From Thuidium tamariscinum (lineage: Eukaryota > Streptophyta > Bryopsida > Hypnales > Thuidiaceae): a DNA stretch of 64,000 nt. This document shows, one piece after another, positions 9,257 through 56,822 of the stretch; the stretch's first letter is position 1, and every line of letters begins with the position of its first letter. Below the pieces are notes generated by a model that did no database searches, had not been told where the DNA came from, and was given only the letters and a program-made list of their open reading frames with translations. Where the stretch lies: assembly GCA_947034885.2 (NCBI GenBank), contig OX344754.2, positions 14,030,501 to 14,094,500 of the forward strand. Direction: 5' to 3'. Position numbers and translations under genes: made by a program.

Positions 9257-11656
9257 TTACGGGAACCTCTTCTTATGCTCAATTTCCCAGCTCGTCAACT
9301 GCCCTTCGATAAAATCATAATGCATACCATAAATGTGCAATTTCCCAGACTTGACACGCTCTTCAATGAAAGGAAAGGTCAACAAATTAGCGAGGGAAAC
9401 ATTCACCGCTTCCTGCATTTCATATGATGAACATGTCAAAAGACCTTGAACTTCGCAAATTTGAAGCCAAATGCCAGAGCATTGCTTGTAACTACTGCAC
9501 CTTGTGCTGTCGGATTCTCAGATCTAATTGTAAACTTGGAGGCCCTCAAAACATATTAGTCTCAATTTCGTTGTTGATTCTAGGTTTGAGTACGCACATA
9601 AACTCATTTCAAAAAGGTTCTCTCACACCATTAACACAAGAGGACCTGTACAAGACAGATAAGCTCGAAGCGTCTCTACACTGCTCACCAAGGTACATAA
9701 TCTCTTGATGAATAAGGCACCTGTTAGGTAGGCGCCCTCATTCTAGATACTGACCCGACATCATATGATGATAAGAAAGTAGGTGGAGAAAAGAATCATA
9801 CCTGCTCACAGAACTTGCATTGTTCATCAAACGGCTTCCCTGCCATTAATGAAAGAGCTTTCTTCTTGGCAGGAAGTCCGATTCTAACCCAGCTTCCTAC
9901 GAAGTCACTGCAAATAGACAAAACATGAGAACCGAACCAAAATGCGATCTGCAGTGACTAGTAAATTGGTCACATAGACTACATTGAAAGCTGCTGTTGT
10001 TCAGCCACTGCACAATGAGGATTAAGCATGTGTAACCAAGGTTTCCTTAAACCTATCGTAATATCCTCCAGAGAGTTCCATCAACTTGTACTCTCAGGAA
10101 AAATCAAGATTAAGTCACAATTGACATACGGTCGGTATTGGACACTACCGGGTTTAAGGATATAATTCACAAAGAAGTGGTGGATAAGTAATTACCCTGA
10201 ATAGACATCTCGCGTCATTAACGCTCTTATACCTCCACAATTGCTGTGTCCCATGACCACAATGCGATCCACCTGCACAAGGAGCAATGGGTGTGGATCT
10301 AAAACTCTTCGAGTACACAAATATGTCAAGGAAGCAAACAAGCACACAGTAGATTTCTAATATTAATGACAGATTCCAGGCATCGCATCTTCAAAAGAGT
10401 CGATACATAAAAAGGACAAGGAAGGAATAAGTTAAATCAATAGATTCTCCTGTCCACATACCTGAAGAACAGTTACAGCAAACTCAATAGCAGCGCTTGT
10501 ACCATGATGCTCACCCTGCACAAATTGATTCGAGTCAAATCATCAGATGATAGTCCACATGAAGGAACAAAACCCACCAAGAGAAAAATAGCACCAAACC
10601 CTTTTCGAAACCAATTTTGTATTTAAATAAGTGTGACAGGCTGGAACATCACTTACGGATCCACCGCAAGGGGGAACCAAATTCGCAACATTTCGGACTA
10701 TGAACGCTTCACCAGCCTCCAGACCGTGGAGCATTGTTGGACACACCCGAGAGTCTGCGCATGTGATCATCATCACCTACATAGCAATCAATGCAATTCA
10801 TACAGCAGGTAATGACAATTCAATAATAACTTGTCAGCTTTTTGAAGGTGCACATGACTATTCATAAATGCGCATAAAGCATAAAATTTTATCAAGTAAT
10901 TTTTGCACAAAAGTTATCATCAAAGATACTCTGAATGGGGGTGGATGGCCATCCAGCGTCAATTATCATATCAGAAGCATAATGGATGTAATTTTGAAAG
11001 TCGCAAATACAAGTAGAACGGGATAACAAGGCAGAAAAAAATGCACATGGCTTCAAGCTCCTTTATTGAAATACGCCAAACACGTCCTATTTCAAAAATA
11101 TGAACCCATTTCAACATACCTTCGGCTCTTGCCCTTCCGCCAGCTTGGCATACAGATCTGGCTTCTGACTGCCCAAAAAGGATCAACAAATTAGTACTCC
11201 ATTATTATCACCTCTAAGTTAATGGTGGTATGCCCACCTACACGGAAAATTCAACAAAAATGGGATCATAGAAGAGGACACAGGGACACACTTGTATTCC
11301 GTCTTCTTGAAATTCTTGAATCCCTTCTTGAGCTTCTCGATAACGTCGCCTGTCCTTTCCACTGCTGTATGCTCGTCCACAATTCCATGGTTGCGCAGCA
11401 CGTAGTCTTCCTTGAGCAAGCCTCCCAATCCGCGCAGCAGCGAAGCTCGCGTGGTCACGGATCGAGATGCGCGCTCTCGCGCTCTCTCAGTTTCAGCAAC
11501 GGGGTGCCATGCTAACCTCAGAGATTCACTTCTCACAAGCAATGACCCCCTTCTCGACCCTGAACACGACGACGAAGGGTCACCAAGCCCTCCGGGTGCG
11601 AAATCGCTCTTTCCCAGCAGCACGCCCCGAGCTCGCTGCAGTACATCCATTGCCAT
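9257..11656 (-). CDS. BCA: Beta-carbonic anhydrase, 7 exons
   Basis: Catalyses CO2 + H2O to bicarbonate and a proton. Minus-strand exons: 11656-11292, 11168-11120, 10776-10657, 10515-10462, 10272-10196, 9907-9802 and 9412-9257, all GT-AG with phases that join exactly, giving 308 residues. The catalytic block [14 protein letters not shown] supplies zinc ligand Cys144 and the Asp146-Arg148 dyad. MGHSNCGG supplies His205 and Cys208. NVANLVPP and [15 protein letters not shown] are further family signatures. The first 80 or so residues are rich in Ser, Arg and Ala with few acids at the start and look like a chloroplast or mitochondrial leader, though location is inferred. ATG 11,656 is chosen because the codons upstream in frame lack an ATG. 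The stop sits inside the donor-like CCGTAAGT; see findings. The call could not be another family; which isoform it is cannot be told. Confidence 0.93.
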
Positions 11657-12500
11657 GGAACCCCCCACACGTCTCCGCGCAATAGAAGCAGCTGGGTTTC
11701 CATATAACAACAGAAACCCAAATCCAAAAGTCGGCCTCAGCTCGACCTACTTACCACACCACCTCAGAACCTCCACAGCACAGCTCCTTACGCGGAATTC
11801 AAATTCTCCTGTTGCTGCGGCATCCCCTCCAACCCCACAACCATCCTCCAATCCCGCAATTCGCTGCTTCTCTCCCTTGATCAATTACAAGACGGAAATG
11901 ATCATCGACCGATTCTCCAAGACAGGGGACGCCTGTCCCAAGAAATTAATGCAGCAGGCCGGCGGAGTCTCCAAGAGAGAAAAAAGCGAATTGGGGACGG
12001 ACAGGAAAGGTGCATATGGAATTCAGTTCAAATCCTGCAATTTAAGAATTATTACGGTAATCGACTCCACGTTGAAAAGCCAGCTCTGGACCTTGTACGT
12101 GAAATTAAGTAACGGGTGTGTCTACAATTTGAAGAATGAGATTAGCTGCTGTGAGAGAAGAGGCTTGGTGGGTATTTGGCGAATGCGCTGTTCTGGGGAT
12201 TGGCGTGTGCAGCTGGCTTTGGAGGAACATGAAGCTGGGCTTGGAGTGATCGGCGTCGTCCTTGCCGAAGATGTCCGGATTTGCACGACGCTGCAGCTGC
12301 TGCTGACGAGCCGGGAAAGAAAACTGAGTTGGCGCTGTGTTGGACGGCCTTGGCGAGACGTGTACTTCGCGTGAAGATTTGGAATAGGAGCATAAGAGGA
12401 ATCTCGCGGTGGTGGGTACCGGGACTATACCTGTATTGGGCGGGTATATGCTGCGAGGTACGCGTTGGGCGGGTATAAGGATAATTTGATGTCTCAAGTC
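11657..12500 (-). promoter_or_regulatory. Presumed promoter and 5' UTR of carbonic anhydrase
   Basis: GC-richer sequence continues upstream of the carbonic anhydrase ATG to about 12,480, then drops sharply to AT-rich DNA. That pattern fits a 5' UTR plus core promoter. No individual element can be defended by eye. A long plus-strand open frame across this block runs antisense through exon 1 and is not believed to be a gene. Confidence 0.4.
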
Positions 12501-18250: not shown

Positions 18251-18775
18251 AAATAGCCCATCTCCTCAAATGTACATTTTTTTTACAATCTTGTAAAGAT
18301 GAAAAAAGGAACATGTACAAACAATGTACATTTGAGAAGGTGGGCGGTTTTAGAGCCAGAGTGGATTTCAAACTTCCTACCTTTGAATCCATTTTCAATC
18401 AGGTAAGTTGGAGGACCCTGAGGGAACCAGCCACTTGGTTCCATCTGGGACAGCAAAAACACTCATCTGATGAGTACGTTACATCATATGCTTATCAAGG
18501 AAATTGGGAGAATAGCCCACCTCCTCAGATGTACATTTCTTTGTACATTCTTGTAAAGATGAAAAAAAGAATATGTACAAACAGTGTACATTTGAGAAGG
18601 TAGATAATTTTAGAGCCTGAGTAGATTTCAAGCTTCCTACCCTTGAGTCCATTTCCAATCAGGTAAGTTGGAGGACCCTGAGGGAACCAGCCACTTGGTT
18701 ACGTCTGGGACAGCAAAAACACTCATCTGATGAGTACATTACCGACGTCATATGCTTGTCAAGGAAATTGGAGAA
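18251..18775. repeat. Tandem duplication, about 260-bp unit x2
   Basis: Two head-to-tail copies start at about 18,251 and 18,510 (AATAGCCCAYCTCCTCARATG...). Each contains a TGTACAttt...TGTACA inverted motif, then the phrase CAGGTAAGTTGGAGGACCC. The copies differ by scattered substitutions and small indels, so the duplication is not recent. No reading frame spans both units. Confidence 0.85.
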
Positions 18776-25457: not shown

Positions 25458-28400
25458 CTAAGTGAGGGACATGGTATCCCTTACATGGCATGTTGATGAT
25501 GCACCACATTGACAGCCCCCTGAGAGGAAGCCTCCACCATCATGGGTGTTGGTGGAATTGGCCCTCCAAGCCTTGAAACAGCAGATGCTAAGAAGTATAT
25601 TAAATGTTTCTGGGGTGGGCTCTAAAGTCTACCATCCAGTCCTCCCTCCCTTCAGTCAGTTCTCCCTCGTGGAGGACGAGCAGCTATTGTGATTGGTATT
25701 GGAGCCAATTTTTGATTCTTTATTCTTCAATGAAAACAATGATAAACAATCTCCAGTAGGAGCAGAGCAGGTGGGATGGTCACTTGGGAGTTCTGAATGG
25801 ATGAACCCAACCGCAAGTTCTTGTCTGTTGCGTGATGCAAGAGAGTGCAAATTCCGCTGTGGATGTTGCGTGATGGAACGTGACATGTTGGAAGTAATTT
25901 GGTTGTCTTCATCTGTCAGTCGGGGGGGGAGATAACTTAAGTGAAGGGAGGGAAAAAAAACTCAGTAAGGTAAGTGTCAATTTCTTGTTTGGCAACACCT
26001 CCACAAAAAGGGGTTGAAATGAAACACTTCTTGCTTTCTGACTCAAAATCTACTCAACTTTTGAGATGCAACCAATGAGAAGGGAGGGAGGAGCTTTTCT
26101 AGAGAAGCACCCAATGAGAGTTGAGGCATTTGGGGCTTCAAGCATGGTCATTCACGGGGAGATCCGTACTCTGTACTCCGTATTTCATAGAAGTTATCTC
26201 ATATTCTCAACTTTGAAAATTTGTAAAATATTACTAAAACTTTGGAAAATTACAAAAAAAAGATTTGGATTGTGTTTCTTTGGGGTTCAATAATAATCTC
26301 ATCAAATGTTTTTGGTCACTTGGGGGATTGGGACAAAAAGATGTTGCTTGTAAAGTGAGTCTTTCAACCCTTGTATGGAGATTAAGCTTATAGTTCAGTT
26401 TGTGAGTTCCTTCAAGGTTGTGGTGCTCCAAAGCTATGATGGACGTTGGAAAATAATTATTGGTGCAATAGTTAACCTCTAAAGGACCAATTTTTATATA
26501 TTTTTCTTTGAAATTTTCACACAACTTGTGTCCAAGCAGTAGTTTTAAGGCCTGACAATTTTCATTACTTTTGACTACATGTTTAAATAGTTATTGCATG
26601 ATGTGTGGTTTCCTTTGATCTTTGGGTAGACGGGTAGCTCAATAAACCTCTTTAAAAATTGTTTTTTGAAAAAATTAAAAAATTGAACTTGATTCTTCAA
26701 GATTTATATGTACACACGAAGCTTTGAATCATTCCATTTTGATGAATGAGGTGAAAGTTATGAGGAGTTTTAGTTTGCAATTAGGTATGGTTTTTAAAGA
26801 CTCTATACCTACCCACAAACTAAAATTCTTCATTGATAATTTTCATCTCATTAATCATCTCATTATTCATAATAGAACGATTTAAAGATTTTCAAATACA
26901 TATAATTCTAAAGAATCAATTTCAAATTTTTATTTTTTCAAAAAGTTATTTTTGAAGAAGTTATTTTGAGCTTTTTGGGCCACCCATAAATAAAAGGAAA
27001 TCACATATCATACGGTAACTTGTTAATAATATAGCCAAAAGGTATTGAAAATTATTGGGTCTTGAAGCTATTGCTTAGACACATATTGTGTGAAAATTTC
27101 AAAGAAAAAAAATAAAAACTTCATTCATAATGAGTTGCCCAAAACTGCTATATTGCCAAAAAACGCAACTTGGTTGTTAAGGGATTAACACAAATTACTA
27201 AGAAGGACTAACTTAACTTATCTATCCCTTCAAAATCCATCTGTGACTAATATACTAATTGCTTCTAGATGGCCATCTCATTAAGGTTGAAGCACCAATA
27301 GAAGATCATTTAAGCAATTTTGGAGGAGATAGTGAGGAATAAGAGCTAGTAGAAAATTTTCCCATGTAGGAAGATAGGAAATATGGGGATTGAGAATTTT
27401 TCAGAATTTTACTCTCAAAATTGAAATTACTATGAATTTTGAGAGCCAAAAAGTCCATAGCACCCAATTCCAATCTTTAAAGTATTCCAATTCTAATCAA
27501 GCTAGAAATACTTTCTCACTCACTTTTTCAGGACATGTCATAATCTTATCCATCCGGACCTTGAATTTTTATTTTTATTTTTTAAATTCCAAACTTCATT
27601 TTTGCTCTAAGGTCGTAAATAGTGCACCCTACAAATTGATTACTAGTTGGCTGGCTATTGAGGAAAGGGTTGTCCTCTAAAATTAATGCTTCAGACCAGT
27701 GTGAGCACCATCTACAGTGTTGTGTGGAAAATGGTCAATGGATTGGATTGGATTTTAACAGTGGAAGGCCACTGTAGGGACTTTCTGCATGATATAAGTT
27801 AGGTCGGGGTGAATTGGCCCCCTCGCTTGGCTGGGAGCAAAAGATATGGCTACAAAAAGTCCTATTTTTTTAGTTTGGTAGATAGAAATGCCTACACACT
27901 AAAAACAATTCAAAAATTGTATTGAACAAATTGTAATTTTGTTGTAATAGAAAGCTTTGATTAATTCCATTTAGATTTGTTATGCAAAAGTTAAAGACAA
28001 TCTTATTTCTCCAATAATCAAAAGTATCTTCTTGAAGCAATAACTTGCAATAGGATTCATTTCTAACTTCAATATTTTGAGTTTAAGAGATCTTTAAATT
28101 TTCTCAAGGTAAAAATCTCTTGCTAGAAAAATCTCACCATTCCAATTGGTGTATTTCAGTTCTAGCTTGAGATATTAGCAATTTAGTTTTTTCTTCAATC
28201 TTCAATCTACTTCTCTTTAATGAATTTGTAATGAGTATAAATTAAATATTTATGATAAATAATAGACTATCAACTCAATCCTTCAATTTAAAAAATTCAA
28301 AATTCAAAATTAGTAGTGCAAAAGTTTTGTGTCAAATGATTCAAAGTCAACAATCAATTATAGTCAAGCAAGGTGCAAGAAAATTTGTTATCTTTACTTC

Positions 28401-29138
28401 AAATGCAAATGTCTGGCAATCAATGGGGGCAAAAAACTCTCAAAATTACCAATTTTGCTCCCTTCACCCAAGAATTTTAAAAAAAATTCTTTTAAAAATC
28501 TAACTGTAGGATCTTGTACTTAATTGAATGGGATCATGTGGTAAAAATTTCATGAGGTTTGACTATATGGATTGAAAGATATGAGCAATATATGTTGGAA
28601 AAAACAAGTTTTTTTGAACTATAGCCTACAGTTTCAAATGACTTTGACTGCCCATTGCCACAGGTGAAAAAAATTTGCACCACATAATTTGAAATGAGGT
28701 TCAAAACGAAGATGAAAACAATAGAAGTTTACACCAATTTCAAAGCATTGAACATTCACCCAGCTACCCATTTCAAGTTGGGTGACAATGAACATAAATT
28801 TCTTTTGTTTAGTAAGCAAAAGATAGATAGCAATACACTCCCAAAGACAATTGCAATGGCAATAGATTCATACTATCTTCCTTCCTTTTCCATTTTCCAC
28901 CTTCCACCGATTATTGTGGAATACCGGTATCCATTCATGGTCGGCAAGAGAGATCCAACTTACCTTACAAGCAACCTGGGGACCCTGAAACTCTTGTTTT
29001 GGATCGCCTGGAGTGGTGGGCGGGGGCTCTTTAGTGTCTCCGTTTCTGGGTGGCCTTTGGAGCTCTTGGTGTTTGGGTTGGCCTTTCTTGTCTGAAAATG
29101 TTCAACTGATCTCACACGGGTGTCCACTCCGGTGGCCC
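25458..29138. other. AT-rich spacer with transposon fragments, no gene
   Basis: No supported gene. About 26,890-27,195 and 28,440-28,640 are fragments of the TTAA-type family (the first matches 990-1,255, the second matches 59,855-60,020). About 27,806-27,840 is a lone end of the GGGTGAAYTG MITE. Some mixed-composition DNA at 25,500-26,180 and 28,900-29,140 carries short open frames without family resemblance. Confidence 0.45.
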
Positions 29139-32848: not shown

Positions 32849-33275
32849 AGCATGTCCAGGTATGCTCCAACCATGTGAGCCATATAACCAACCTCTAAAA
32901 TAAAGACTACATATGTGCTCCTTTCTTCAAGTGCCTTGGCAGCTTGGAGCCAAGGATGCATTGTTGTGTACTTTCCCTATTCAATGGAATTGTCCATGTG
33001 TTTTTTTGTTTTTTGTTTTTAAAACATGGACAAATTGTCCATGTGTTTCAAGAGGGACTGAAAATGTCATCTGTAAGTTACTTTTCTTTATACATCCTGT
33101 TTGTATAGTTTTCTGCAAATCAGGTTCCAACCTGCATTATTGAGGGGTTAACTAGCGCAGAATGCCTGCCTTTCAAGTAACTTATTCAAGCTTACCATTC
33201 AGGAGGACAATTTCAGATCCATCCATCCACGATCATGAGACTTCCATTTTGTGAAGCCTCTCATCTCATCTCATT

Positions 33276-34206
33276 TTAACCCCTAAAGGACTAAAGTCCC
33301 CTCGGGGGACACTTGAAATTTCGGGCAGGCTTGTGTGACCTGAATTTTTGCTATGATTTTTTGAAACTTTTTTTGAAGATAGGAAATCAAGTTAGCTTTC
33401 CAAAAATATAATTTTTATTTCAATTGGTGCTTGGAAGCAAAAGTTATGCCTTTCTAAGTCCAAAAAGCAGTTTGCCGGGCAGAAAAAAAAAACACAAAAA
33501 AATTATTTTATTTATTTTAATTTTTTTTCTCAAAGATTATATTTTCTTCTACATCTGAAGCTTTGATTCATTTTATTTGGACAAATAATGAGAAAGTTAT
33601 GAACAATCTTTTATTTCGGACAATCTAAGCACCTTCTTCAAAAAATAACTTATAGAATTCATTTTTGAATGCAATTTTTCAAATTTTTCAAATTTTCTTT
33701 TTTGATAGGGTTTAGGATGTTTTCAAGAACAAGCTCACCTTTGGGATCATGGTTTTTCAATTACATCTTAAAGTTATTAACAACTTAATGTTTTGTTCAA
33801 TCTTGGACCTACTTCTACTTAACAATTTTTTAATGAATGAAAATCAAGTAGTTTTTTTTTAAAATTTTTTCCCCTAATTCTCAACTCAAGTGTTCAACAT
33901 AAAAAATTTTAACTTCATGGTCCATAGTGCAAAAAAATTCAACAAATGGCAGTCAAAGTCATCTGAAATTGCAAGTCAGAGTTCAAAAAAACGTTTTTTT
34001 TTTCAACTTTGAATGCTAATATCTTCCAATCCGTACGGTCAAACTTCATGAAATTTTTACCACATGATTTCAGACAAGTAATTTAGAAGATCCTACGGTT
34101 AGATTTTAAGAAAATTGTTTTATTTTGTTTTTTTAGGAAGAAGTAGCAAACATGGCAGTTTTGAGTGGTTTCAAGCCAGAAAATGCCTCAGTCCTTTAGG
34201 GGTTAA
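33276..34206. mobile_element. TTAA-bounded element, 0.93 kb
   Basis: Starts TTAACCCCTAAAGGACT and ends AGTCCTTTAGGGGTTAA, a 17-bp perfect inverted end pair. It is the same element as 59,772-60,690 in opposite orientation. Its last TTAA is also the first TTAA of the next element (34,203). Non-coding. Confidence 0.75.
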
Positions 34207-35496
34207 CCCTTGAACGATGCTGCGAATGTTTGGTGTCCGCTGAATGACAAAAAATCTTTCCTTCCAAAAGAGATATCTCGGGGAGGACACTTCCCTTTTT
34301 TTAATAACCTACGTGCGGTGGAATATAGGATACATTTAAATAATCTTAGGTAAAATTTATAAGAAATTTCATATAAATTAGGGGACATTAAAAGTGGCAT
34401 GTCCTTTATAAGTAATATAGGGAACCGGAAAATATGGTCCATTAGAATTTAGGTAGATATAAATTAGGCACAAAAGAATGGGATCTTAGGAAAAAAATTT
34501 AGTAGGTTCAATTAATATTTATAATACTAGTCAGATACAGCTCAAGATACAGGTCCTATAGTATATCTACAGCTCATCAGGTACTGTGGTATATCTACAG
34601 CTCATCTACAGCATATCTTTAAGTCATATCTTTCCAGCATATCTGTAACGACAGAGGTCATGTGCAATTGTGAAAGTTGATTCCTTGCTTGATGATTTGA
34701 ATGTTGCGTTGATTCAAGTTGCCAACGACGGAAACCATTTGATACTGAATCTACTAATTGATGTAGGTGCAACGAATTTAGTCAGTGCCATGACAAAGGA
34801 AAATATTAGTTTGGGTAGCACCATGTCATAGAGCTTGATTTTGTTTTTTCACATGTGATGGAGGGCATTAGAACGACGTATTTCTGATGTAATTTTTTTA
34901 TATGAGGCATATATTTGTGGTCATAGTTCACAAATGAACTTCATGTCTGTGTTTTTAAACACATTTTTGTCCCTAAAATCTCTTCAATACTTTTTCAACC
35001 CTAATGTCTTGCTTTTCATGCATGTATTTGTGTTGTATTTGTATTCATGCATTGTTATAACTCGAATCTTTTTTTCTATAAGATATTTGTTAGTCACTTG
35101 TATTCTCATTAGTTTTTTTGTTAGTTTTTTTCCTTTCAAAGAAAATTGCCTCTAATATATTCCTTTGGCCTACATATTATAAGTAATGATAGATATGATA
35201 ATATGGGTAATTTTTTTGCTTTATGTAATAATAGGGGTCCTTTAAATGCTTTTTAGGAGGTAAATAGCCCCCCAAAAAATACCCCACCGCCGCACGTGGG
35301 TCCCCCAAATACACAAGAAGTGTCCTCCCCGAGAGAGAAATGCAACATTTCATCTTCGGTATTGGGGTGGAAAGGGAAGATCTTCTACAATACTTTGACT
35401 TCAAATGCATATATTTGGCTTTTTCAAAGTAGGTGATGTTACACAGTATCAAAATGCATGGTTTCCGTGGCCATAGGTTCGTCCTTCAAGGGTTAA
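34203..35496. mobile_element. TTAA-bounded element, 1.3 kb, long inverted arms
   Basis: Starts TTAACCCTTGAACGA and ends TCCTTCAAGGGTTAA. Inverted similarity continues well inside (CTCGGGGAGGACACTTC near 34,278 and its complement near 35,317, then an ACGTGCGG box), so the arms exceed 100 bp. The middle includes a small tandem of CAGCTCATC/ATATC phrases (34,530-34,640) and an open stretch of about 50 codons at 34,676-34,830 that I do not recognise. Confidence 0.65.
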
Positions 35497-40320: not shown

Positions 40321-40652
40321 CATCGTCGAGGTGCTTTTGGTGGAGCCCCTCCAGCAACACTTCGTTCCTCTGACTTGATTGTGTATATGTGTGTCTGTTT
40401 CCGGAGAGTTTTCGGGGCTTGGGGTTGGAATAAAACTGGCAGTTTGGGGCGCAGCTTCGAAGCTCCCGAGCAGAAGCCGGACGGATCTGTGGTAGGAGCG
40501 GGTGGATCGAGCAGCACGAGAGATATGAGGAAGGCGGGGTTCGCGAGAATTGGAGAAGGGGAAACACCAGGTGGGGAGTGCTAACAGTGCTCTGCAGCAA
40601 CAGGGGGGAAGGAGAGGGCGGAAAACAGGGGTGCTTTGCGTGAGGCGTGGGA

Positions 40653-43600
40653 ATGGCCGTGACGGACAATGCCGGGATAGGGCTGGCCATGGGCATGGCG
40701 CAGCTGTCATTGGGGCGGAACTATCCGATGATTGCCATGGAGGCCAAAGAAAATGGGCACCCCGATCAGCTCTACGATCCGCACCACGCCACACCGCTCT
40801 TGGAGCAGCAAGGCCAGGCTCAACAACAGTACGACCAGCAGCTCCAGCAGCAAGCGCAGGGACAGCAGCACCAATCCTACAATCATCAGCACCAGAACCA
40901 GCAGCACAGCAATCCGTCGGGTGTGCCGCAAAATCAACAACAAGTGGCCTCGTCAGCGGGGATGCAGCATGCGGGGCGAGCGAACGGCTTGAATGGGCAC
41001 GTGAAGGCAGAGAGCGCGGGCGACGACGAGGAGTTGCGCAGCAATGGCAGCAACAACAGCATGCGGGAGCTGGAGGACCTGCTCACGAAGCTGAATCCGC
41101 TGGCCAAGGAATTCGTGCCTCCTTCGCTCACGGACGCCAGCGCCAACGTGACGTCGTCCGGGGTATCGTCCAAGGGGCAGACGCGCAAGGTAGGGCATGA
41201 CCTCCGAGTGATCGTGGATTAGGCATGCAATTAGGGATGAGATTAGGACGCATGAGGGGAGTGGGGTGTGGGGATTAAATTTTGGGCCTCTTCTGGCATG
41301 GCTTGTGTTGGGGATGTTGGGGATCTCGTTCGGAGTGGGCGTTGTCTGATCCGCGGTGTTTGTTGCCATGTGTTAGAAGAAGAATGGCTACAGCCAGGGC
41401 AACAAGCGGCGAGTGAACAGTCGCACGAGTCGTGCGCAGCGCGAGGACAGCATCCGCAGGACCGTCTACGTGTCGGATATCGACCAGCAGGTACGGATCT
41501 CGCTCGCTTTGGGGTCGCTCTTCCGCTGGCGGTTAGGCCGATCGCGAGGCGTTGTTGTTTTTGCTTTAGGGTGTCCGCGGGTGTCTAATTGCTAGATCCA
41601 ATGCAATTGGGATGAACATTGCGTTGGAGGGTTCAAGAAAACACAATGCCGCCAGGGTTTGATCACCGTACGGAGGGTGGGCGACGCAAGTACCGCGATC
41701 GTCTGTCCGCGTGATCCCGTCAATTAGTGTTCCTTCTTCGTTTTAATGATCGAATCCAAGATCACTGCGAGAGGTTACTTGGGATTGGCAGGTTTGGCAG
41801 AGGAATTTAAGCTAGGGTGCACGAGAAGAGCAGTTGATTGCCGACATTATGGAGTGTAGAGGGTGCGCATTTAGCATAAGAGCTTGGTATCGGCACAGTG
41901 GAATAGATCTCAATTCGGGCACGTCCTTGAGTCGGCAGGATCCTCGCCAGGTTCCTCTGAGATGACTGTACAATCGGTAGGTGTCTGTTTCGAAACGGGT
42001 GTGGCAGATTGAAGACACTGTAATGTATAGGAATAGTGTAGTGATTTGATTTTGTGCAAGCGATAGCGTTTGATGATGAGTTTGATACAAGCAACTGCCA
42101 CCCTCGTCCCTGGCCTGTCGCTCTGTTGCATTGTCGACGCTGATGACGTTATTGAACTGGGATTTTGGGTTGTGGTGTGCTAGGTCACAGAGGAGCAACT
42201 TGCAGCCCTGTTCATCACTTGTGGCCAGGTAAAGCACAGTCGCCTTTGGTATGGGTTCCATTTCGTAACCTTGAAATTGAGTTCCCGTAGCTCTGATGGA
42301 ATCAGCCGTTCTGGTCTTGGATGTTTTTCTAAGTAGCGTAGGTGGAAGTGTTAGTTTCTTTAATCCATTTTCGGACTTTGGGGATCCGGAAAGGTAGTAT
42401 TCTTGTATATATGGGGCGGGTGCAAATTAGGTCATAGAGGCGTAGGGGTTGTTTGTGAGGACTGGAATTGTGGACTGTTTGAAGAATGATTCCAGGTGTT
42501 TCGGGTTCACAACCTTGCGCTTTTCCAACTGGGTTTTGTGCGATGGTTAGGTGGTGGACTGTCGTGTGTGCGGGGATCCGAACTCCGTGCTTCGATTCGC
42601 TTTCGTGGAGTTCACGGACGAAGGTATGTATTTTCTAACATCGTTCGCAAGGACACCAATCGGATCCCTGAAAATGTTTGCAATTTTGCACGACGAGTAA
42701 TTACTATAGAGAATCGTGGTGTCATGGCACCTTTGTTTGAGTTCGGTGCCGTGTTGATGCCCAGACGGTGCCCGGGCCGCGTTGAGCCTGGCCGGGACGA
42801 TGTTGGGATATTACCCGGTGCGAGTGCTTCCATCGAAGACGGCGATCGTGCCTGTGAACCCGACCTTTCTGCCGAGGGTGAGGAATTTCTTCTTCTCGAA
42901 GAGTGTGAACGATGTCGTTAATGTGTGCCCCCGAGAATTTGAGTGAATGGAGTGGCTAGATCTTGTGTTTGAGGTGCTTCTGGAAGGGAGATTTGTGAGG
43001 TGCTTTGAAAGGGTAGGGACTGTGTGCAACAACCGGGGAAACTGGTGTTGGTGCAGTAACATCTTTGATATGATGCTGTTCATTTTGATGTGCAGTCCGA
43101 AGACGAGCGCGAGATGTGTGCACGCACCATCTACTGTACAAATATTGACAAGAAGGTGAAGTGGAGTGGAACAAGCCTGTGGGTTTTATTGCAGCTGGCA
43201 AGCTTTGTGAAGGGCGGTTGTAGGGAAACAGGGATGATGGGGTAGTGACGTTGTTAGGACGAGCAGCGTTTTGTTTTGTTTTTGTGTTGTTGGTCTGATG
43301 AGAGTGAGAGTGTGTATTGGCGGGGCCTCTGAGCGAGCAGTGACTTGATGCAGGTGTCGCAGGCCGATGTAAAGCTCTTCTTCGAGTCATTATGTGGCGA
43401 GGTAAGGCTTGGGTGCTGGTTGTGGTGAATTTCCGGGGTTGACGGTGACTGTTGGTTTCTATGCGAGTCCTACGCTGGTGGAGGCGTTTGTTGGATTGTC
43501 CATTTGATGATAACGTGTTGAATGTGTTTAGGTTGCGCGGTTGAGACTTTTGGGAGACTATCATCACTCTACTCGCATAGCCTTCGTGGAGTTTGTGATG

Positions 43601-44089
43601 GTGAGTTTTGTGGATTGTTTTCTTGTTGGGACGAGAGTGGTTGGCACACGTGTTTTGCCATGGCGTTGGTGGGATTTGGGTCGGGTGGTGGATGCCGGGT
43701 TTCCCTCCCAGTTTGGACGGAGAGGAGCCTTGGGTGTGGAACTACGTATGATGGGAGCGTTATTTATTTTTCAGAGCTGAACTGTTGTAGAAGAAGCATT
43801 GGATGTTAGCATGTCTTGATAGGGAAGTGCAGATGGATTGAGCCGAAGTGGTGTCCTCCATGTCTGGGTATGTTGCAGGCGGAGAGCGCGATGGCGGCTT
43901 TGAATTGCAGCGGTGCCATCTTGGGGTCCCTTCCAATCAGGTGGGTGCAACGTCGTCGTGTTTTGGGATTTCGTAGAGAGTGTTGGTGCGGTGGTGTCCC
44001 GTTTCGCTGATGCGTTTTCCTGCTGCTGCAGAGTGAGCCCGTCGAAGACTCCCGTGCGTCCGCGGTCGCCCCGGCCCCCTTTGCACTGA
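40653..44089 (+). CDS. CID: CID-type PAM2 + two-RRM RNA-binding protein, left copy
   Basis: Ten exons: 40653-41189, 41377-41490, 42184-42228, 42551-42623, 42765-42877, 43096-43155, 43354-43401, 43532-43600, 43879-43940 and 44032-44089. All are GT-AG and phase-consistent, giving 392 residues. The order is a Gln/His-rich N-terminus (about 50-100), a PAM2 motif KLNPLAKEFVPPSL (146-159), a basic KRRVNSRTSRAQR segment (189-201), RRM1 with TVYVSDI (208-214) and LRFAFVEF (246-253), and RRM2 with TIYCTNI (305-311) and TRIAFVEF (344-351). It ends in SKTPVRPRSPRP. This is the plant CID8-13 class: PAM2 binds the MLLE domain of poly(A)-binding protein and the RRMs bind RNA, implying a role in mRNA translation or stability. 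ATG 40,653 starts MAVTDNAG, shared with the paralog. The first acceptor reads TAGAAG, a possible tandem site. Confidence 0.93.
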
Positions 44090-44890
44090 CGGGCAGGCGC
44101 GCCGTGGAGGCACGAAGGAAGCACCTGTGAGCGGCAGGGTTTTAGAATCTGCTGTTTGCGGCGTCCTGACTGACGACGCGGTGGCGCGGTCGCCGGGCCA
44201 AGACGTGTCTGACTACTCCATGTGACTGGAGACTGTAGAAGAGTCGGAAGAGCTGGAGGCAGGAGCCAGCTCGTAGATGGCCGGAGTGCGTCGGTGTGTG
44301 TGTGCCCGTGAAGCTTTGCGGAGTCGCGGGCGTCGTCGCCGTCCCTTGGGCCCATCCCTGCCAACACGATTATTCATGTGCTTTCCAGAGCTCTACTGCG
44401 GCAGAGCCGTTGTCTGCACAGGCACTAGCTTGCCATCGCCCCGGTGTTTCCCGGGGTCGGGCCCCTCCGCGAGGGAGTCTGTCTGCCTGCTGCTGGGTCT
44501 CAGGACAGGGCCGTGGTCGGACATCTCTTAGTGTAGCAAGTGCGAGCAAGCAAGTCCCGGGAAGAAGTACTCCGTAACGTAGAGTCTTGCTACGCGGCCT
44601 TGTATTTGATACCGTTGGTGCGACCACTGCCTGGCCAGGTGGGTCCGGAGGGCCCCGGAGCATCCAGCGGGGGTCCCCCATTTGTTCTGAGCAATAGCAG
44701 CAGCCTCGTTCCTCCCTGTCGAGAGACCTCTGGCTAGTTCCCACAGCAAATAATGGATTCCTATCCGCCAGCCTAAGGCTTTATTTTTTAAACTAATTTA
44801 TCCCCGCCTCCACTCCACTGTTGCAACTCCACCATCGCGCCGCTCTCCTCGTTGCATCCCTTCACGTCCGCGAGGACTGCACTCACTTCG
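44090..44890 (+). other. 3' UTR / flank of left CID gene inside identical arm
   Basis: About 800 bp after the stop that is matched almost base for base, inverted, by 49,631-50,431. Two substitutions are visible close to the inner edge (near 44,850-44,860). No canonical AATAAA was found on the plus strand; AATAAT occurs at about 44,750. Confidence 0.6.
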
Positions 44891-47800
44891 CGGACTGTTG
44901 AGAAGTCTCGTGGATTGTTTTTTCTCTTGTTTGTGGAGTCATAGCACGTCAGTGCCTTTTGATTGCCGGTATCGTCGGTACTTATTGCTGTTGGAGTTGA
45001 CAATGTTCTCGAATCTGAGAGGTTGAAGTCGGCCATTATCAATTGTGGGTACTGTTGAGGCAAAGCAATGTCCGCAGCTTGCTACTAATATTTTATGAGC
45101 ACATTGCTGTTTTTAAGGTGATAATGGTGATCTTGGTGGTCTGATGGGTTTCAAATTGAAGGACGCTCACGTGTTCTTGAAATGGTTGTTGACCGTGGAC
45201 CACGGACTTACTCATGTCCACAGCAGCAGGAAAGGCGTTGGCAGCTGCAAAAGCTGTGTCTCTTTGACATTTTTGGAGGGTAAAACAGCCCATTGTAGTC
45301 AGATACCCATAGTCGGATGACCCCATTGTGGGTTTTTGCAGTATGTGAGATGTGGGCCACAATCAATTTCTCAATGTGAAATTCATTGTAAGAATTGATT
45401 TTGTAGGCCTCCCAAGTTAAAAAATATTGTGATTATAGTAGGTATTAACCCCTAATTGCCAACAACACCAATTCTTGACACTTGGATGATGAGAAAGTGA
45501 TCTTGAGAGAGGTTGAAAGTAATGTTTTGTCCATTTTTTTGCTTGCTATCGTTTCATAGAGGGTTATGAAGAGCACCTAATTGAGTTTGTAGTCTTGCTA
45601 GTGTTTGTCTTCATGTAAATGAGAAATAAGTAAAAAACATGGATGGCAAAATTTGTTATTTCAATGTATTTTGCTCCTTGCTCTAAATCTGAAATTTCTC
45701 CTTGAAAATGACATTTTTTGAGTTTGAGCCCAACTAATAAAATGAAGGTTCTATAATCTAGTTTCTACTCCAATTTGAATTTTTGTAAAAATTCGTATTA
45801 TTGAATATTTTATTGCACTTTGAACTTTGGAGGTATTTTCAATGTCCACTGTATTCTAATTATAGGACATAGAAATTCAGCTTACACCATGATGTTTGTC
45901 ATTGTAATGTACACATATGGTGAAATTTTCAAATCTTTTAAAATAATTTCTATTTGATGAGATTTTTTTTCACTTTCTCTTCAAAAATTCTCATAAAAAT
46001 CAATTTTTCTCAAAAGGTCCTAAATTCTTTTTGTGAAGTGCAAAAGACATTTGATTTCATCCATATTTGGTTCAAGATGGCAATAAACTGAGTGATGGGC
46101 AATGAGGCTTGAAACCAATTGTTATGGGTCCATCCTTTAAAGGTTAAGATGAATACTATAGATTCAAATTTTGTTGGTTACAGGGTATTCTACATATTCT
46201 TTTGGACCATGGTGCAGTGAAAACTTCAAAAATTCCACGTTGTTGAAAAATATAATTTCAATTTCACTTGGTGTTTCTTACACTTGTCTTTATGTGGGAA
46301 AAATATTGAAAAATTTCAAAATATCATGATGCCAAACTCCTAATTCTAATGACAATGGATTGTTCTACCTTACAAAGAAATCAGAGCATTTGTAATTAGT
46401 AACAAGAACTATGTGATTGTGAGGCTTTGTCTTAGGTGAACAAAGCTATTAGTTTTATATATTAATAGAAAATACTAAATAGATGGAATATTAAACAAAA
46501 TAAATAGTAGAGAAAATGATAAAAGATGATTTCATCTTAATTTAGGAGTATTGATATATTATCTTATGATTTCATCTTAGTTTGGTGAGCATCTGAGATG
46601 CATTGATATATTTCAAGCATTCACTTAACTATTTTCTTAGTTCAAAGTCCTTATTCTAGAGACTTTTGAATGTTTCACTTAGAGACAAGACAATTGTGTA
46701 TTTCTAGAAATTGGGGCAGTAAGGATTATTCACGTAACCAATTAGGGATCCAAATACAGAGACAATGTAGTAGTCAAAGACAATAACAAGCATTAAGGCC
46801 AATCTAACCTATGGAAGTTCAATACAAGAGAGTGTAAAGTGTGTCAATGGAATCATCAAAGTAGATTGCAAAAAGCTATATCTATTTGAGATTTTTATTT
46901 AAGATGACTAACAATTTGTTCAAATAGAAGAGCTTAATGGAATTGAAAGGCTTACTCACTTTTGTGAACGAGGTAGGTGGAGGCTTAGAAGGCAATCAAC
47001 CAAGCTATATACTTTACTTCCAAAAAGAAGTGCTAGACATTGTTGAATCTTCACTTGCTTTGAAGAGATCTCTAAGTTTAAGCTAGTCACGTGAGCTCAT
47101 CAAAATGAGTTAGATGGCTAAACTTGCAACATTAAACTAGGTTATATTGATAAATTGAGCGCAAGAGTGCTTTAAACAAGAAAGCAACAATAGACAAACA
47201 AAAATCTTACTCAAACTCTTAAAGAATGCACAAACCTATAACATTTGGCTCTCTTCAACATTATGACTTCTTTCCATAAGACTTGATAAGCTCCAAGTTT
47301 GTAGTAGTCATTATAATTCCTTCCAAAAGGTGAGGTGATCCAATAAAATCCTATTTGCCTATCATGATTAAAGAACTAGATATCAAAAACCTCAAGGCCT
47401 AAGTAGAGAGTTCTATTCTAATTCTACAATTACATACCTTTACACAAGCTTGATGGATTACACTATCCAAATCCTACAACATATATATGTTTAGAAAACA
47501 AGATGTTCTAAACAAAATCCAAAGTCTCAAAAATCCATCTGAAAAGTACAAATCCAACATATTCTAGTAGTCTACAAATTTGATTCTACAAATTATCAAA
47601 TTTAATGTAAAATATTCCTATTATAGACAACTACACCTTTCATCTTCAACAACCATAGAGAATTAGTTTTAAAACACAAGTACAAAGCTCAATTTTGTAT
47701 TCTCAATTCCATATCTATACACGAGCTCCAAGGATTATAGCACTTAAACCTCATATTAGATGATTATGTTACAATAGACTTTAAACCCTAAACCACACTA

Positions 47801-49630
47801 GCACCAATACAAAAATCAATAAGCGTTTCTTACAATCACCCAAAATGGGTTCTCTCATACTCAAGAAGCACATCTCATACACCAAAAAAATCACCAAAAT
47901 CATATTTTATATGTTTCAAAATACAAGCAAAAAGAAGCTCATTTTATAAACTTCCACACCACACAAAATTAATTATTTTAAAGATTTCTTTGGCCATTAG
48001 CTACAAGTCTTCTAGAAAATCATTCCATCCAAATTTCACCTCAAAATTTGTTTTTTGGGGTACTAAATAGTACTAAAAATCTTCAAATTGGCAAATGTGA
48101 CATACAATCAAGGTCTATTTTTGGATGGTAAACTATTTTTGAAAATTGTGAAAAAATTAAAAAAAGGTGTATAATAGTTATGAAGACCTTTTACATAAAT
48201 CTTGATTCATTTGGAGCCAAAACACAAAATTTATGGACAAAAACCAGATTAGCATGAAACATGTGATACAAATAGTACAATTGTTTCTTGCAATCACCCC
48301 TTTCTACTTCTTTTTCTTTGTAGAATGGTGTTGTAAACATGACCTCTCAAGATTGAAGATGATATGACGTGTTCCCTACTAGTAGGCTTCACAAGCATAT
48401 TGTCATCAACATTAGCCAAGGCCCTCTTGAGCAACGAGTCCATCCAACTCTTGTTCAATTTAAGTTCACAATTTCTTCTTTATGTTTGGCTACGTTTTTT
48501 GCTACAGACAGGGGTTTTGTAGTAGACATCAATACCTACTAGAAGGTGTACGCTTTGTGCTCCATCTTCAACCTAATTGGACATCATGCCGGGGCACTAT
48601 TGTGGAACGTGAAAAGTTGACAAGTAGTCAAGGTGACCCCAATGCAATGTGTTTGTAGAAGGCCCGCTTGCAAGGCAAACAATTAAGATGCATGGACAAT
48701 GTCGTGGGGTGGTGCCGTACGCCACTACAACCACCTTATCACACTCCTCTACACTATTGCAATTGTTGTCTGCTACTCCAACTTGGCCTCTACACTATGA
48801 ATCATTGCTACGCCAACCCACTCTAGTTTGCAGTCGTAGCCTTCCGTATAGCCCTTGCCTTGAACTTGTATTGCATATTGTCACCTTCTACTGCACCTCA
48901 ACTATCATTGGTTGACCAACTCATTGTCTATTTCTTCCACCATGTCTTCTTGCTCAAGGAAGACATCCATGTCCAAGAACTCTTCATATGTTGCTTCTTC
49001 TTTTACGTGCCTTACGTGTTCAAAAACGTCCTTCAAGTATAGTTGCTGAAATGTTGTCTTCATGTTTGGTTTTTTGTAGGATCTTGGGGAAAACTACACC
49101 CACTGGTATTCATGAACTTGTACTAAGTGAATTTGGCAGCCTAGAACTTTAAATTAATCACTTACGCAGCTCAAGGACACTACAGACGTAGTCTCCTTCA
49201 ATGTCCATGGCATGGAAATGAAGGCGATATAGTTTTCTATGGAATTCAGTAATGTACGTATGTCAAAATGTAGCTACCAGCATTTCAGAAATACTTACTT
49301 TCAGAGAAGCCAATCATTGCCAGCAGTGGAAACATGAGGCAATAACTGCATCCTAGCCCTCGCTTGCTCATAAAGCATAAACGAGGCACGTCGGCTGAAC
49401 TCCGCTCATCACACACGCTCCTTCATTTCACAACCTGTTTGAACGCCTTCCTTTCCATACCTTCGGGCGCCTATTACAGACTGCTCGCATTTAGAGCCTT
49501 CTACTACAATCCGTCAAAGCACCAGGAAACAAAAAAATCATCAACAAAGCTGGACATCAAAACTTCACGACACACAGAAGGCCCAAAACGCGAAATAACA
49601 GTCGAAAAACCAAAGTACCAGCAACACCAA
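44891..49630. other. Spacer between the inverted arms (4.7 kb)
   Basis: Unique relative to the arms. The two edges (44,891-45,370 and 49,360-49,630) are of mixed composition and may be strongly diverged 3' flanks. The middle is AT-rich. It contains the TTAA element 45,445-46,147, and 47,870-48,290 resembles the inverse of 58,130-58,560. I see no gene. Confidence 0.5.
45445..46147. mobile_element. TTAA-bounded element, 0.70 kb
   Basis: Starts TTAACCCCTAATTGCC and ends TCCTTTAAAGGTTAA. It is an inverted-orientation relative of 32,125-32,848. No coding capacity. Confidence 0.55.
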
Positions 49631-50431
49631 CGAAGTGAGTGCAGTCCTCGCGGACGTGAAGGGACGCAACGGGGAGAGCGGCGCGATGGTGGAGTTGCAA
49701 CAGTGGAGTGGAGGCGGGGATAAATTAGTTTAAAAAATAAAGCCTTAGGCTGGCGGATAGGAATCCATTATTTGCTGTGGGAACTAGCCAGAGGTCTCTC
49801 GACAGGGAGGAACGAGGCTGCTGCTATTGCTCAGAACAAATGGGGGACCCCCGCTGGATGCTCCGGGGCCCTCCGGACCCACCTGGCCAGGCAGTGGTCG
49901 CACCAACGGTATCAAATACAAGGCCGCGTAGCAAGACTCTACGTTACGGAGTACTTCTTCCCGGGACTTGCTTGCTCGCACTTGCTACACTAAGAGATGT
50001 CCGACCACGGCCCTGTCCTGAGACCCAGCAGCAGGCAGACAGACTCCCTCGCGGAGGGGCCCGACCCCGGGAAACACCGGGGCGATGGCAAGCTAGTGCC
50101 TGTGCAGACAACGGCTCTGCCGCAGTAGAGCTCTGGAAAGCACATGAATAATCGTGTTGGCAGGGATGGGCCCAAGGGACGGCGACGACGCCCGCGACTC
50201 CGCAAAGCTTCACGGGCACACACACACCGACGCACTCCGGCCATCTACGAGCTGGCTCCTGCCTCCAGCTCTTCCGACTCTTCTACAGTCTCCAGTCACA
50301 TGGAGTAGTCAGACACGTCTTGGCCCGGCGACCGCGCCACCGCGTCGTCAGTCAGGACGCCGCAAACAGCAGATTCTAAAACCCTGCCGCTCACAGGTGC
50401 TTCCTTCGTGCCTCCACGGCGCGCCTGCCCG
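49631..50431 (-). other. 3' UTR / flank of right CID gene inside identical arm
   Basis: Mirror image of 44,090-44,890: each position equals 94,521 minus its partner. It lies between the minus-strand stop and the abrupt inner end of homology at 49,631. Confidence 0.6.
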
Positions 50432-53400
50432 TCAGTGCAAAGGGGGCCGGGGCGACCGCGGACGCACGGGAGTCTTCGACGGGCTCACTCTGCAGCAGCA
50501 GGAAAACGCATCAGCGAAACGGGACACCACCGCACCAACACTCTCTACGAAATCCCAAAACACGACGACGTTGCACCCACCTGATTGGAAGGGACCCCAA
50601 GATGGCACCGCTGCAATTCAAAGCCGCCATCGCGCTCTCCGCCTGCAACATACCCAGACATGGAGGACACCACTTCGGCTCAATCCATCTGCACTTCCCT
50701 ATCAAGACATGCTAACATCCAATGCTTCTTCTACAACAGTTCAGCTCTGAAAAATAAATAACGCTCCCATCATACGTAGTTCCACACCCAAGGCTCCTCT
50801 CCGTCCAAACTGGGAGGGAAACCCGGCATCCACCACCCGACCCAAATCCCACCAACGCCATGGCAAAACACGTGTGCCAACCACTCTCGTCCCAACAAGA
50901 AAACAATCCACAAAACTCACCATCACAAACTCCACGAAGGCTATGCGAGTAGAGTGATGATAGTCTCCCAAAAGTCTCAACCGCGCAACCTAAACACATT
51001 CAACACGTTATCATCAAATGGACAATCCAACAAACGCCTCCACCAGCGTAGGACTCGCATAGAAACCAACAGTCACCGTCAACCCCGGAAATTCACCACA
51101 ACCAGCACCCAAGCCTTACCTCGCCACATAATGACTCGAAGAAGAGCTTTACATCGGCCTGCGACACCTGCATCAAGTCACTGCTCGCTCAGAGGCCCCG
51201 CCAATACACACTCTCACTCTCATCAGACCAACAACACAAAAACAAAACAAAACGCTGCTCGTCCTAACAACGTCACTACCCCATCATCCCTGTTTCCCTA
51301 CAACCGCCCTTCACAAAGCTTGCCAGCTGCAATAAAACCCACAGGCTTGTTCCACTCCACTTCACCTTCTTGTCAATATTTGTACAGTAGATGGTGCGTG
51401 CACACATCTCGCGCTCGTCTTCGGACTGCACATCAAAATGAACAGCATCATATCAAAGACGTTACTGCACCAACACCAGTTTCCCCGGCAACCCCAGCTG
51501 TTGCTACCCTTTCAAAGCACCTCACAAATCTCCCTTCCAGAAGCACCTCAAACACAAGATCTAGCCACTCCATTCATTCGAATTCTCGGGGGCACACGTT
51601 ATCACACTCTTCGAGAAGAAGAAATTCCTCACCCTCGGCAGAAAGGTCGGGTTCACAGGCACGATCGCCGTCTTCGATGGAAGCACTCGCACCGGGTAAT
51701 ATCCCAACATCGTCCCGGCCAGGCTCAACGCGGCCCGGGCACCGTCTGGGCATCAACACGGCACCGAACTCAAACAAAGGTGCCATGACTCTATAGTAAT
51801 TACTCGTCGTGCAAAATTGCAAACATTTTCAGGGATCCGATTGGTGTCCTTGCGAACGGTATTAGAAAATACATACCTTCGTCCGTGAACTCCACGAAAG
51901 CGAATCGAAGCACGGAGTTCGGATCCCCGCACACACGACAGTCCACCACCTAACCATCGCACAAAACCCAGTTGGAAAAGCGCAAGGTTGTGAACCCGAA
52001 ACACCTGGAATCATTCTTCAAACAGTCCACAATTCCAGTCCTCACAAACAACCCCTACATCTCTACGACCTAATTTGCACCCGCCCCACATATACAAGAA
52101 TGACCATTCCGGATCCCCGGAGTCTGAGGATTGGCTTAGGAAAACAAGTTAGCAATTTCGCCTACGCTACTTGACAACCGCGTCCGGAACCTGAAAAGCT
52201 CATCACATGAAAGCTAAGGGATCTGAAAGAGCATTCTCATGATTTTCCAATTCAAGGTTTCGAAGCGGAACTCCTACCAATATCGAGTTTGGTTTACCTG
52301 GCCACACGTGATAAACAGGGCTGCTAGTTGCTCCTCTGTAACCTACCACACCACAATACACCACACCAAAGAATTCCAGTTCATGTACTGTTGTCAATGC
52401 CCACAATGCAACAGAACGGCAGGTCCGGGAAACGGGTTCCTGCGGCTAGCACCGACTCCGCCACTACACTATTCATATGCAGTCCAGTGTGATCTTACAT
52501 CCGCTAAACACGCTTGAAAACGGAAGGCTGGGCCAGCCACCATCGCACACACGGTCACCTATCGAATTGAGATCTATCTGACTTAGCCAAGGTTAAGCTC
52601 TTGTGCTACATGCCCACCCTCTACACTCCACAATGTCCGCAATCAACTGCCCTTTTCGTGCACCCCAGCTTCAGCTCCTCTGCCAAACCTTCCAATCTAA
52701 GTAACCTCTTGCAGCAATCTTGGATTCGATCATTGAAACGAAGAAGAAACACTAATTGACGAGATCACGCGAACTGACACTCGCGCACCCTCCGTACGGT
52801 GACCAAACCCTGGCGGCATTGTGTTTTCTTGAACCCTCCAACGCAATGTTCATCCCAATTGCATTGGATCTAGCAATTGGACACCCGTGGACACCCTAAA
52901 GCAAAAACAACAACGCCTCGCGATCGGCCTAACAGTGAGCGGAAGAGCGACCCCAAAGCGAGCGAGATCCGTACCTGCTGGTCGATGTCCGACACGTAGA
53001 CGGTCCTGCGGATGCTGTCCTCGCGCTGCGCACGACTCGTGCGACTGTTCACTCGCCGCTTGTTGCCCTGGTTGTAGCCATTCTTCTTCCATCACATGAC
53101 CACAGACACCGCGGATAAGACAACGCCCACTCCCAACGAGATCACCAACATCCCCGACATAAGCCATGCCAGAAGAGGCCCAAGATTAATCCCCACCCCC
53201 ACTCCCCTCCTGCGTCCTAATCCCCTCCCTAATTGCACGCCTATTCCACGATCACTCGGAGGTCATGCCCTACCTTGCGCGTCTGCCCCTTGGACGACGC
53301 CCCGGACGACGTCGCGGTGGCACTGGCGTCCGCGAGCGACGGAGGCACGAACTCTTTAGCCAGCGGATTCAGCTTCGTCAATAAGTCCTGCAAGTCTCGC

Positions 53401-53753
53401 ATGCTGTTGTGGCTGCCATTGCTGCGGGAGTCTTCGTCGTCTCCATTCGCATGCCCATTCGCTCGCACCCCCGATGATGATACCACCTGCTGCTGGTGCT
53501 GGTGCTGCTGGTGCGACGGATTGCCCTGGTGCTGAGATTGTTGCCCCTGCCCGTCGTACTGTTGTTGATGCGCGTGCACTTGCTGCTGCTGCTGCTCAAC
53601 AACAACAGGCAAGTGGTGTGGCTGATCACCGTAGAGCTGATCGGGGTGCCCGTTTTCTTTGGCCTCCATGGCAATCATCGGATAGTTCCGCCCCAATGAC
53701 AGCTGCGCCATGCCCATTGTCAGCCCTATCCCGGCATTGTCCGTCACGGCCAT
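50432..53753 (-). CDS. CID: CID-type PAM2 + two-RRM RNA-binding protein, right copy
   Basis: Minus-strand exons: 53753-53274, 53085-52975, 52342-52298, 51949-51877, 51745-51633, 51425-51366, 51167-51120, 50989-50921, 50642-50581 and 50489-50432, giving 372 residues. Domain order equals the left copy: Gln/His-rich N-terminus, PAM2 KLNPLAKEFVPPSL (127-140), basic linker, RRM1 and RRM2. Exons 4-10 look identical to the left copy. Exon 3 differs at four synonymous sites. Exon 1 is 19 codons shorter and clearly diverged (different Gln runs), though the start MAVTDNAGIGL and the PAM2 block are kept. The exon 2 acceptor TAG of the left copy has become TGG, so splicing must use the next AAG, removing one Lys. 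Both copies appear intact. The family role is PABP binding through PAM2 plus RNA binding; how the two differ in use is unknown. Confidence 0.92.
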
Positions 53754-54052
53754 TGCCCCTCCCTACCAAGGCAGCCCCGGTTTTTTCCCCTCGCCACTCC
53801 TTCGCTTGCTCCAATTCTACGTCCCCGGCTTCTTCACATCTCTCTCCGAAAACGCACACATGCTCTCTCCCCCGGTGCGGATCCGCCCGAGATCCGGAGC
53901 AGCTGGGTCCCCAAGGCCCCAGTTTTATTTAAATCGGGAGTCTCCCGAAGCGGCAGGAGCGAAGACAGAGGGAGGGAGATGCACGTGTGTTGAAGGGAGA
54001 AGGGGAGCGAGGGTGTTGAAGAAAAGGCGAGAAGCAAAAAGGAGGAGCAGGA

Positions 54053-56497: not shown

Positions 56498-56671
56498 ATA
56501 GCTTCTCTACTTAACTTAGGACAATGCAATTTGTTAACAAAGTCAATCCTTTAGTTGACATCTAAGGAGTTCCTAGATGGTAGACAAGAACTAAGGGAGC
56601 TTCTACAACAAAGAAGATATGTGATAGGTAAGGGTGTACAAGAAGGTTTCTGCAACACAGTCCATTTCAAT

Positions 56672-56822
56672 AAAAATATTTCATTGTGTGTTTGGGTCAA
56701 GTAGGAGTTGTAAGAAAGTCATTTCAAAGTCACGTTTTAATTTGCAAGAAAAATATTTCATTGTGTGTTTTGAGTCAAGTAGGAGTTGTAAGAAAGTCAT
56801 TTCAAAGTCATGTTTTAATTTG
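56672..56822. repeat. 77-bp tandem duplication
   Basis: The unit with AAATATTTCATTGTGTGTTT, then GTCAAGTAGGAGTTGTAAG, then AAAGTCATTTCAAAGTCA, occurs twice, offset by 77 bp, with very few differences. Confidence 0.85.

Follow-up and report, generated by a model that had tools for sequence, protein, structure and literature searches.

A mosaic of identity between two inverted CID genes of Thuidium tamariscinum suggests ectopic gene conversion

An identical tract shared by two inverted genes

We analysed a stretch of 64,000 nucleotides (hereafter the window) of Thuidium tamariscinum (Bryopsida, Hypnales), positions 14,030,501 to 14,094,500 of contig OX344754.2 in assembly GCA_947034885.2, which carries two intact CID genes. 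The genes are convergent inverted paralogs, a relationship already claimed in an initial annotation of this DNA and borne out here by gene models and inverted alignment, and their arms lie 4.74 kb apart. Gene A occupies 40,653-44,089 and gene B 50,432-53,753 on the reverse strand (coordinates are those of the window, on the forward strand unless stated otherwise). The arms share introns and 3' flank that are identical base for base, beside homologous noncoding sequence that has diverged by 25-34%. Such a pattern supports the gene conversion proposed in the annotation, and ectopic (interlocus) conversion between the inverted copies is, as judged from sequence comparison, very probably its best explanation.

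The exact run extends over 1,787 bp with 0 differences, from 43,062 to 44,848 in arm A and from 49,673 to 51,459 on the reverse strand in arm B, and spans the end of intron 5, exons 6-10, introns 6-9 and 759 bp of 3' flank. None of its 1,490 noncoding sites is mismatched, which sets the upper 95% bound of divergence at 0.2%, less than 1/100 of that of the diverged blocks. The same run was recovered in all three further alignment settings, and when the 315 difference events were shuffled over 4,099 sites in 2,000 permutations, the longest run was at most 188 bp as against the 1,787 bp observed. The number of synonymous substitutions per site (Ks) was 0 over 118.3 synonymous sites in exons 4-10, compared with 0.505 in exon 1. 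The tract is thus a long identical stretch that includes neutral sites and is bounded on its outer side by diverged homologous sequence; on its inner side it is bounded by only 42 bp with two single-nucleotide polymorphisms (SNPs) before homology ends. The annotation had described a match over 43,050-44,890 with partner coordinates summing to 94,521 and with identical exons 4-10. The sum holds within the tract and the exons agree at 483 of 483 aligned bases, so that the identity stands but its exact limits are those of the run given above.

Most of the two RRMs is encoded by exons 4-10, and class D CIDs are described as having conserved RRMs (PMC4574140), so that purifying selection confined to the 3' half, with no exchange between the copies, could be proposed. 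Selection on the protein, however, cannot explain the tract, because introns 6-9, the 759 bp of 3' flank and every one of the 118.3 synonymous sites are identical as well, and we find this explanation hardly credible.

Beyond the exact run, the last stretch of homology covers 42 bp (44,849-44,890; partner 49,672-49,631), after which homology stops. Because it contains SNPs at 44,849 and 44,856 (2/42 vs 0/1,787 in the exact run, p = 0.0005), either 44,848 marks the end of the exact tract or these SNPs arose later by mutation. The sharp inner edge of conversion placed by the annotation at 44,890/49,631 could not be upheld, as this point is the end of the repeat, where detectable homology simply stops, and self-comparison of the spacer (44,891-49,630) revealed no self-match. 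The abrupt end of homology resembles a duplication breakpoint and would suit a recent second duplication, in which the 3' half was recopied and joined by rearrangement to the old 5' half of the other gene. Such an origin needs a junction at homologous bases of intron 3 or 5 with gene order and frame preserved, and would in effect amount to conversion. Besides, a single copied block would leave unexplained both the two SNPs of 44,849-44,890 and the differences within 42,442-43,061, and we assign a second duplication very little probability.

A mosaic of identity along the arms

With gaps left out, the aligned arms were 80.9, 98.2, 91.1, 100 and 100% identical in exons 1 to 5 and 91.4, 82.3, 83.4, 98.5 and 93.2% identical in introns 1 to 5; from exon 6 through exon 10 identity was 100% and in 44,090-44,890 it was 99.75%. 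Penalised likelihood segmentation resolved five segments with event rates of 0.024, 0.363, 0.084, 0.292 and 0.009, at a log-likelihood of -812.9 vs -1110.8 for one rate. The division into an identical 3' half and a diverged 5' half given in the annotation was therefore too simple, since the 5' half is itself a mosaic.

The first segment comprises the conserved first 41 codons of exon 1 (40,652-40,776; 3 events in 125 sites, Ks 0.077) and is followed by the diverged Q/H-rich part of the same exon (40,777-41,036; 74 events in 204 sites). Synonymous differences fell at 2 of ~27 sites in the first 41 codons vs ~36 of 77 in the rest (p = 0.00016, sites rounded). In the codon alignment of exon 1, 41 of 158 aligned residues differ, and the ratio of nonsynonymous to synonymous divergence (Ka/Ks) is ~0.4 (0.199/0.505); there is therefore no sign, by that measure, of positive selection behind the divergence. 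The length difference of 19 codons in exon 1 (537 vs 480 nt) and the 4 differences among 45 sites of exon 3, both listed in the annotation, reappeared in our alignment.

The third segment, with 70 events in 836 sites, is an intermediate stretch that takes in the end of exon 1, intron 1, exon 2 and the 5' part of intron 2 (41,037-41,885), and its noncoding divergence in three pieces is 0.086, 0.032 and 0.120. Intron 1 is identical at 169 of 185 sites (16 differ) and 41,491-41,690 of intron 2 at 183 of 189 (96.8%; 6 differ). The fourth segment (41,886-42,441; 147 events in 503 sites) is a diverged block of the 3' part of intron 2, exon 3 and the 5' part of intron 3, with noncoding mismatches at 80 of 237 sites (0.34) in 41,886-42,183 and 53 of 211 (0.25) in 42,229-42,441. 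The earlier statement that upstream introns barely align applies to this block (66-75% identity) but not to intron 1 or 41,491-41,690, and 41,190-41,690 is closer than 41,886-42,441 by Fisher's test (p = 1e-19). Intron 1, early intron 2 and the first 41 codons resemble conversion tracts of greater age or smaller size. Alternatively, these conserved 5' stretches may reflect constraint, either on an element within the intron or on the coding start. A search of Rfam at gathering thresholds found no RNA gene in the arms to explain the conserved part of intron 2. As the noncoding and synonymous divergence contrasts so strongly along the arms, presumably neutral sites of one gene pair differ greatly in age, and if a clock is assumed, the last homogenisation happened very recently compared with the duplication.

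Adjoining the exact run is a stretch of high identity, 42,442-43,061 (partner 52,058-51,460), which contains 16 mismatches in 413 noncoding sites and 3 gap events. Ten of the 16 mismatches lie inside a 16-bp patch at 43,017-43,032, and two indels, each of exactly 10 bp and with the longer form in arm A, occur ~200 bp apart at 42,711-42,720 and 42,909-42,918. The annotation had noted the patch (as ~15 bp near 43,020) and the first indel (near 42,716) correctly and had overlooked the second. The noncoding counts differ from the 0/1,490 of the exact run with p = 2e-11, and without the patch (6/~398) with p = 9e-5. When differences were spread evenly over 42,442-44,890, a clean run of 1,787 bp arose in 10 of 2,000,000 simulations if the whole patch was scored as one event, and in 0 of 2,000,000 if each difference was scored singly. 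The clean run is thus unlikely under evenly spread differences, in support of the annotation's suggestion of more than one event or of mutation afterwards. The patch itself may be either sequence left unconverted or the product of a complex mutation; within 40,500-54,000 no match of at least 10 bases to its words was found elsewhere as a templated source, and there was one 9-base match, at 52,662.

Several points weigh against repeated conversion as the origin of this mosaic. The segmentation kept 42,442-44,890 as one segment, and the boundaries for the noncoding tests and simulations were picked after the differences had been seen. A single clean event would not account for the 16-bp patch or the two 10-bp indels. 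How far the diverged blocks have diverged varies with the aligner, and other settings gave mismatches of 20-33% in 40,777-41,036, 26-28% in 41,886-42,183 and 21-24% in 42,229-42,441. Constraint could partly lie behind the identity in 41,037-41,885 and in the first 41 codons. Moreover, the case comes from one genome and its two CID copies.

Homogenisation during assembly or polishing also has to be considered, as reads of one arm may have built or corrected both, which would leave the identity in the consensus only. Reads can be mis-assigned within inverted repeats such as the one that holds the tract, and the evidence is the consensus of a single assembly, in which A and B appear as two loci that differ in their flanks and 5' halves. 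Against such an artefact, SNPs and indels are kept on both sides of the run (from 43,061 outwards, and at 44,849 and 44,856). Since blocks at 21-34% divergence are easily told apart, such an artefact would need true arms that were already near-identical, and we consider it improbable.

The gene pair and its proteins

The models of both genes were built by hand from splice edges and are predictions from the sequence. Gene A has 10 coding exons with GT/AG edges and an open frame of 392 amino acids; exons 1-5 lie at 40,653-41,189, 41,377-41,490, 42,184-42,228, 42,551-42,623 and 42,765-42,877, and exons 6-10 at 43,096-43,155, 43,354-43,401, 43,532-43,600, 43,879-43,940 and 44,032-44,089. Gene B keeps the same 10 exons and an open frame of 372-373 amino acids. 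Its length depends on exon 2, where the AG acceptor of gene A is replaced by GG at 53,090-53,089 (region 53,085-53,090); the next in-frame AG, three bases on, is probably used, with the loss of one lysine.

Both proteins exceed the curated Pfam cut-off for PAM2 (PF07145; 23.4 and 23.5 bits vs 20) and each contains two consecutive RRM_1 stretches (PF00076), gene B having been scored as the 372-amino-acid form. The class D CIDs, CID8-CID13, are described as having PAM2 and two consecutive RRMs (PMC4574140); the pair shares this layout and belongs to class D. A sequence search of the PDB gave 57 matches, RNA-binding proteins going by their names, and added no insight. Two class D CID genes each are reported for Physcomitrella patens and Selaginella moellendorffii (PMC4574140). 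The passages of that paper on CID8-CID13 do not mention conversion between members, though the paper was not searched for conversion.

Copy number and genomic context

Genome searches covered the 363-Mb assembly of 19 contigs at E <= 0.001. With the tract and with the whole arm as queries, the two copies were the only matches reported (2 of 2 candidates scored in each search). The 392-amino-acid query gave 14 matches among 31 candidates, all 14 in genes A and B, and so no third CID paralog, although this search could miss a distant one with short exons.

For comparison with other repeats, 304 kb were compared with themselves, made up of 104 kb (the window and 20 kb on each side) and one 200-kb block of contig C1. 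Pairs of at least 300 bp, less than 40 kb apart and at E <= 1e-20 were retained; as the sample amounts to 0.08% of the genome, no rate for the genome as a whole follows from it. There were 31 such pairs, 12 of them inverted, and two of these represent the CID genes. Among the 12 inverted pairs only that of the CID tract has an exact run of at least 100 bp, a length also reached by four direct pairs, three in C1 and one beside the window.

The spacer (44,891-49,630; 4.74 kb) has a G+C content of 35% and includes fragments at 45,552-46,147 and 47,881-48,299 that match elsewhere in the window; the flanks likewise hold such fragments. The 3' flank (44,090-44,890) is at 60% G+C compared with the 35% of the spacer. 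We do not claim GC-biased conversion, as windows of at least 50% G+C also occur elsewhere in the 304 kb, where genes are unannotated. An inverted match between 33,273-34,215 and 60,693-59,763 (73.6%), whose coordinate sum of 93,966 is near that of the arms, was considered as part of a larger palindrome. It was rejected, as the right copy overlaps other matches (28,430-28,650 direct, 27,952-28,349 inverted) and the interval between it and the arms contains no further inverted match of such a sum; the two sequences are probably dispersed repeats.

Apart from these, the sole Rfam match in the window is a full-length small nucleolar RNA (snoRNA), snoZ157 (RF00333; 4,098-4,197, 73.4 bits), of a plant snoRNA family, which together with the class D CID layout points to a land plant. 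A direct repeat of ~265 bp in two adjoining copies, 89% alike, lies at 18,252-18,775, and a tandem repeat with a period of 78 and 2.1 copies at 56,664-56,822. An open stretch of 322 amino acids at 11,406-12,371 had no Pfam match, and a search of a plasmid collection gave no match.

Discussion

The mosaic of identity and the two open gene models are direct observations in this assembly, from which we infer the mechanism and the number and order of events. An old inverted duplication would have produced the two convergent CID genes, which then diverged. A break in one arm may have been repaired by copying the inverted neighbour as template, without lasting rearrangement, and more than once. The latest event or events would have homogenised ~1.79 kb that begin in intron 5 and end shortly before homology stops on the inner side. 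The stretch 42,442-43,061 may have been affected earlier or less completely, and 41,037-41,885 suggests events that are older still.

The process is already known, and the CID pair is a further gene pair that shows it. In Drosophila, the palindromic pairs Hsp70Aa/Ab, Hsp70Ba/Bb and Amy-p/Amy-d are presented as cases of ectopic conversion, and this orientation is said to keep changes in copy number to a minimum as conversion proceeds (PMC3924832). The CID genes resemble them as linked mirror-image paralogs homogenised, in our reading, by ectopic conversion. The Drosophila pairs were followed in several species, and for Hsp70 also through shared polymorphisms, whereas the CID case comes from one genome; in the melanogaster group concerted evolution of Amy is described as coding-only (PMC3924832), while the CID tract takes in introns and 3' flank and stops inside the gene. 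GOT1p1 and GOT1p2 of Tigriopus californicus likewise form a mosaic of low and high divergence between paralogs under gene conversion, though they were studied across populations (PMC3728101).

Conversion has also been considered in land plants, and Lang et al. 2008 is reportedly the source cited for the suggestion on tandem genes of Physcomitrella. For these tandemly arrayed genes, concerted evolution by gene conversion is suggested (PMC3045890); they are alike in being neighbouring land-plant duplicates with suspected conversion, but the suggestion is made at genome level, unlike that for the CID pair. No title among the papers listed by full-text literature searches names the CID gene pair, which is no proof of absence from print. 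Within one genome, the locus offers a clear candidate case of ectopic conversion in a palindrome of plant genes, its stretches being apparently of different age, and could be used to test the length of conversion tracts and whether crossover inverts the spacer.

In a tree of the RRM segment, the region used for class D CIDs (PMC4574140), the duplication would appear very recent, whereas judged by exon 1 and the diverged introns it appears old. The pair is of interest mainly as a clean plant example that combines several stretches of different divergence with a split of a homogenised RNA-binding end from a diverged PAM2-side end. A tentative and rather doubtful extension is that repeated conversion holds the two CIDs identical over the long term in their RNA-binding half and 3' flank, with the Q/H-rich linker (beside the PABP-binding motif) and the intron 2-intron 3 block as islands that escape conversion. 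If such modular concerted evolution were true, different protein-partner ends would be evolving on one shared RNA-binding end.

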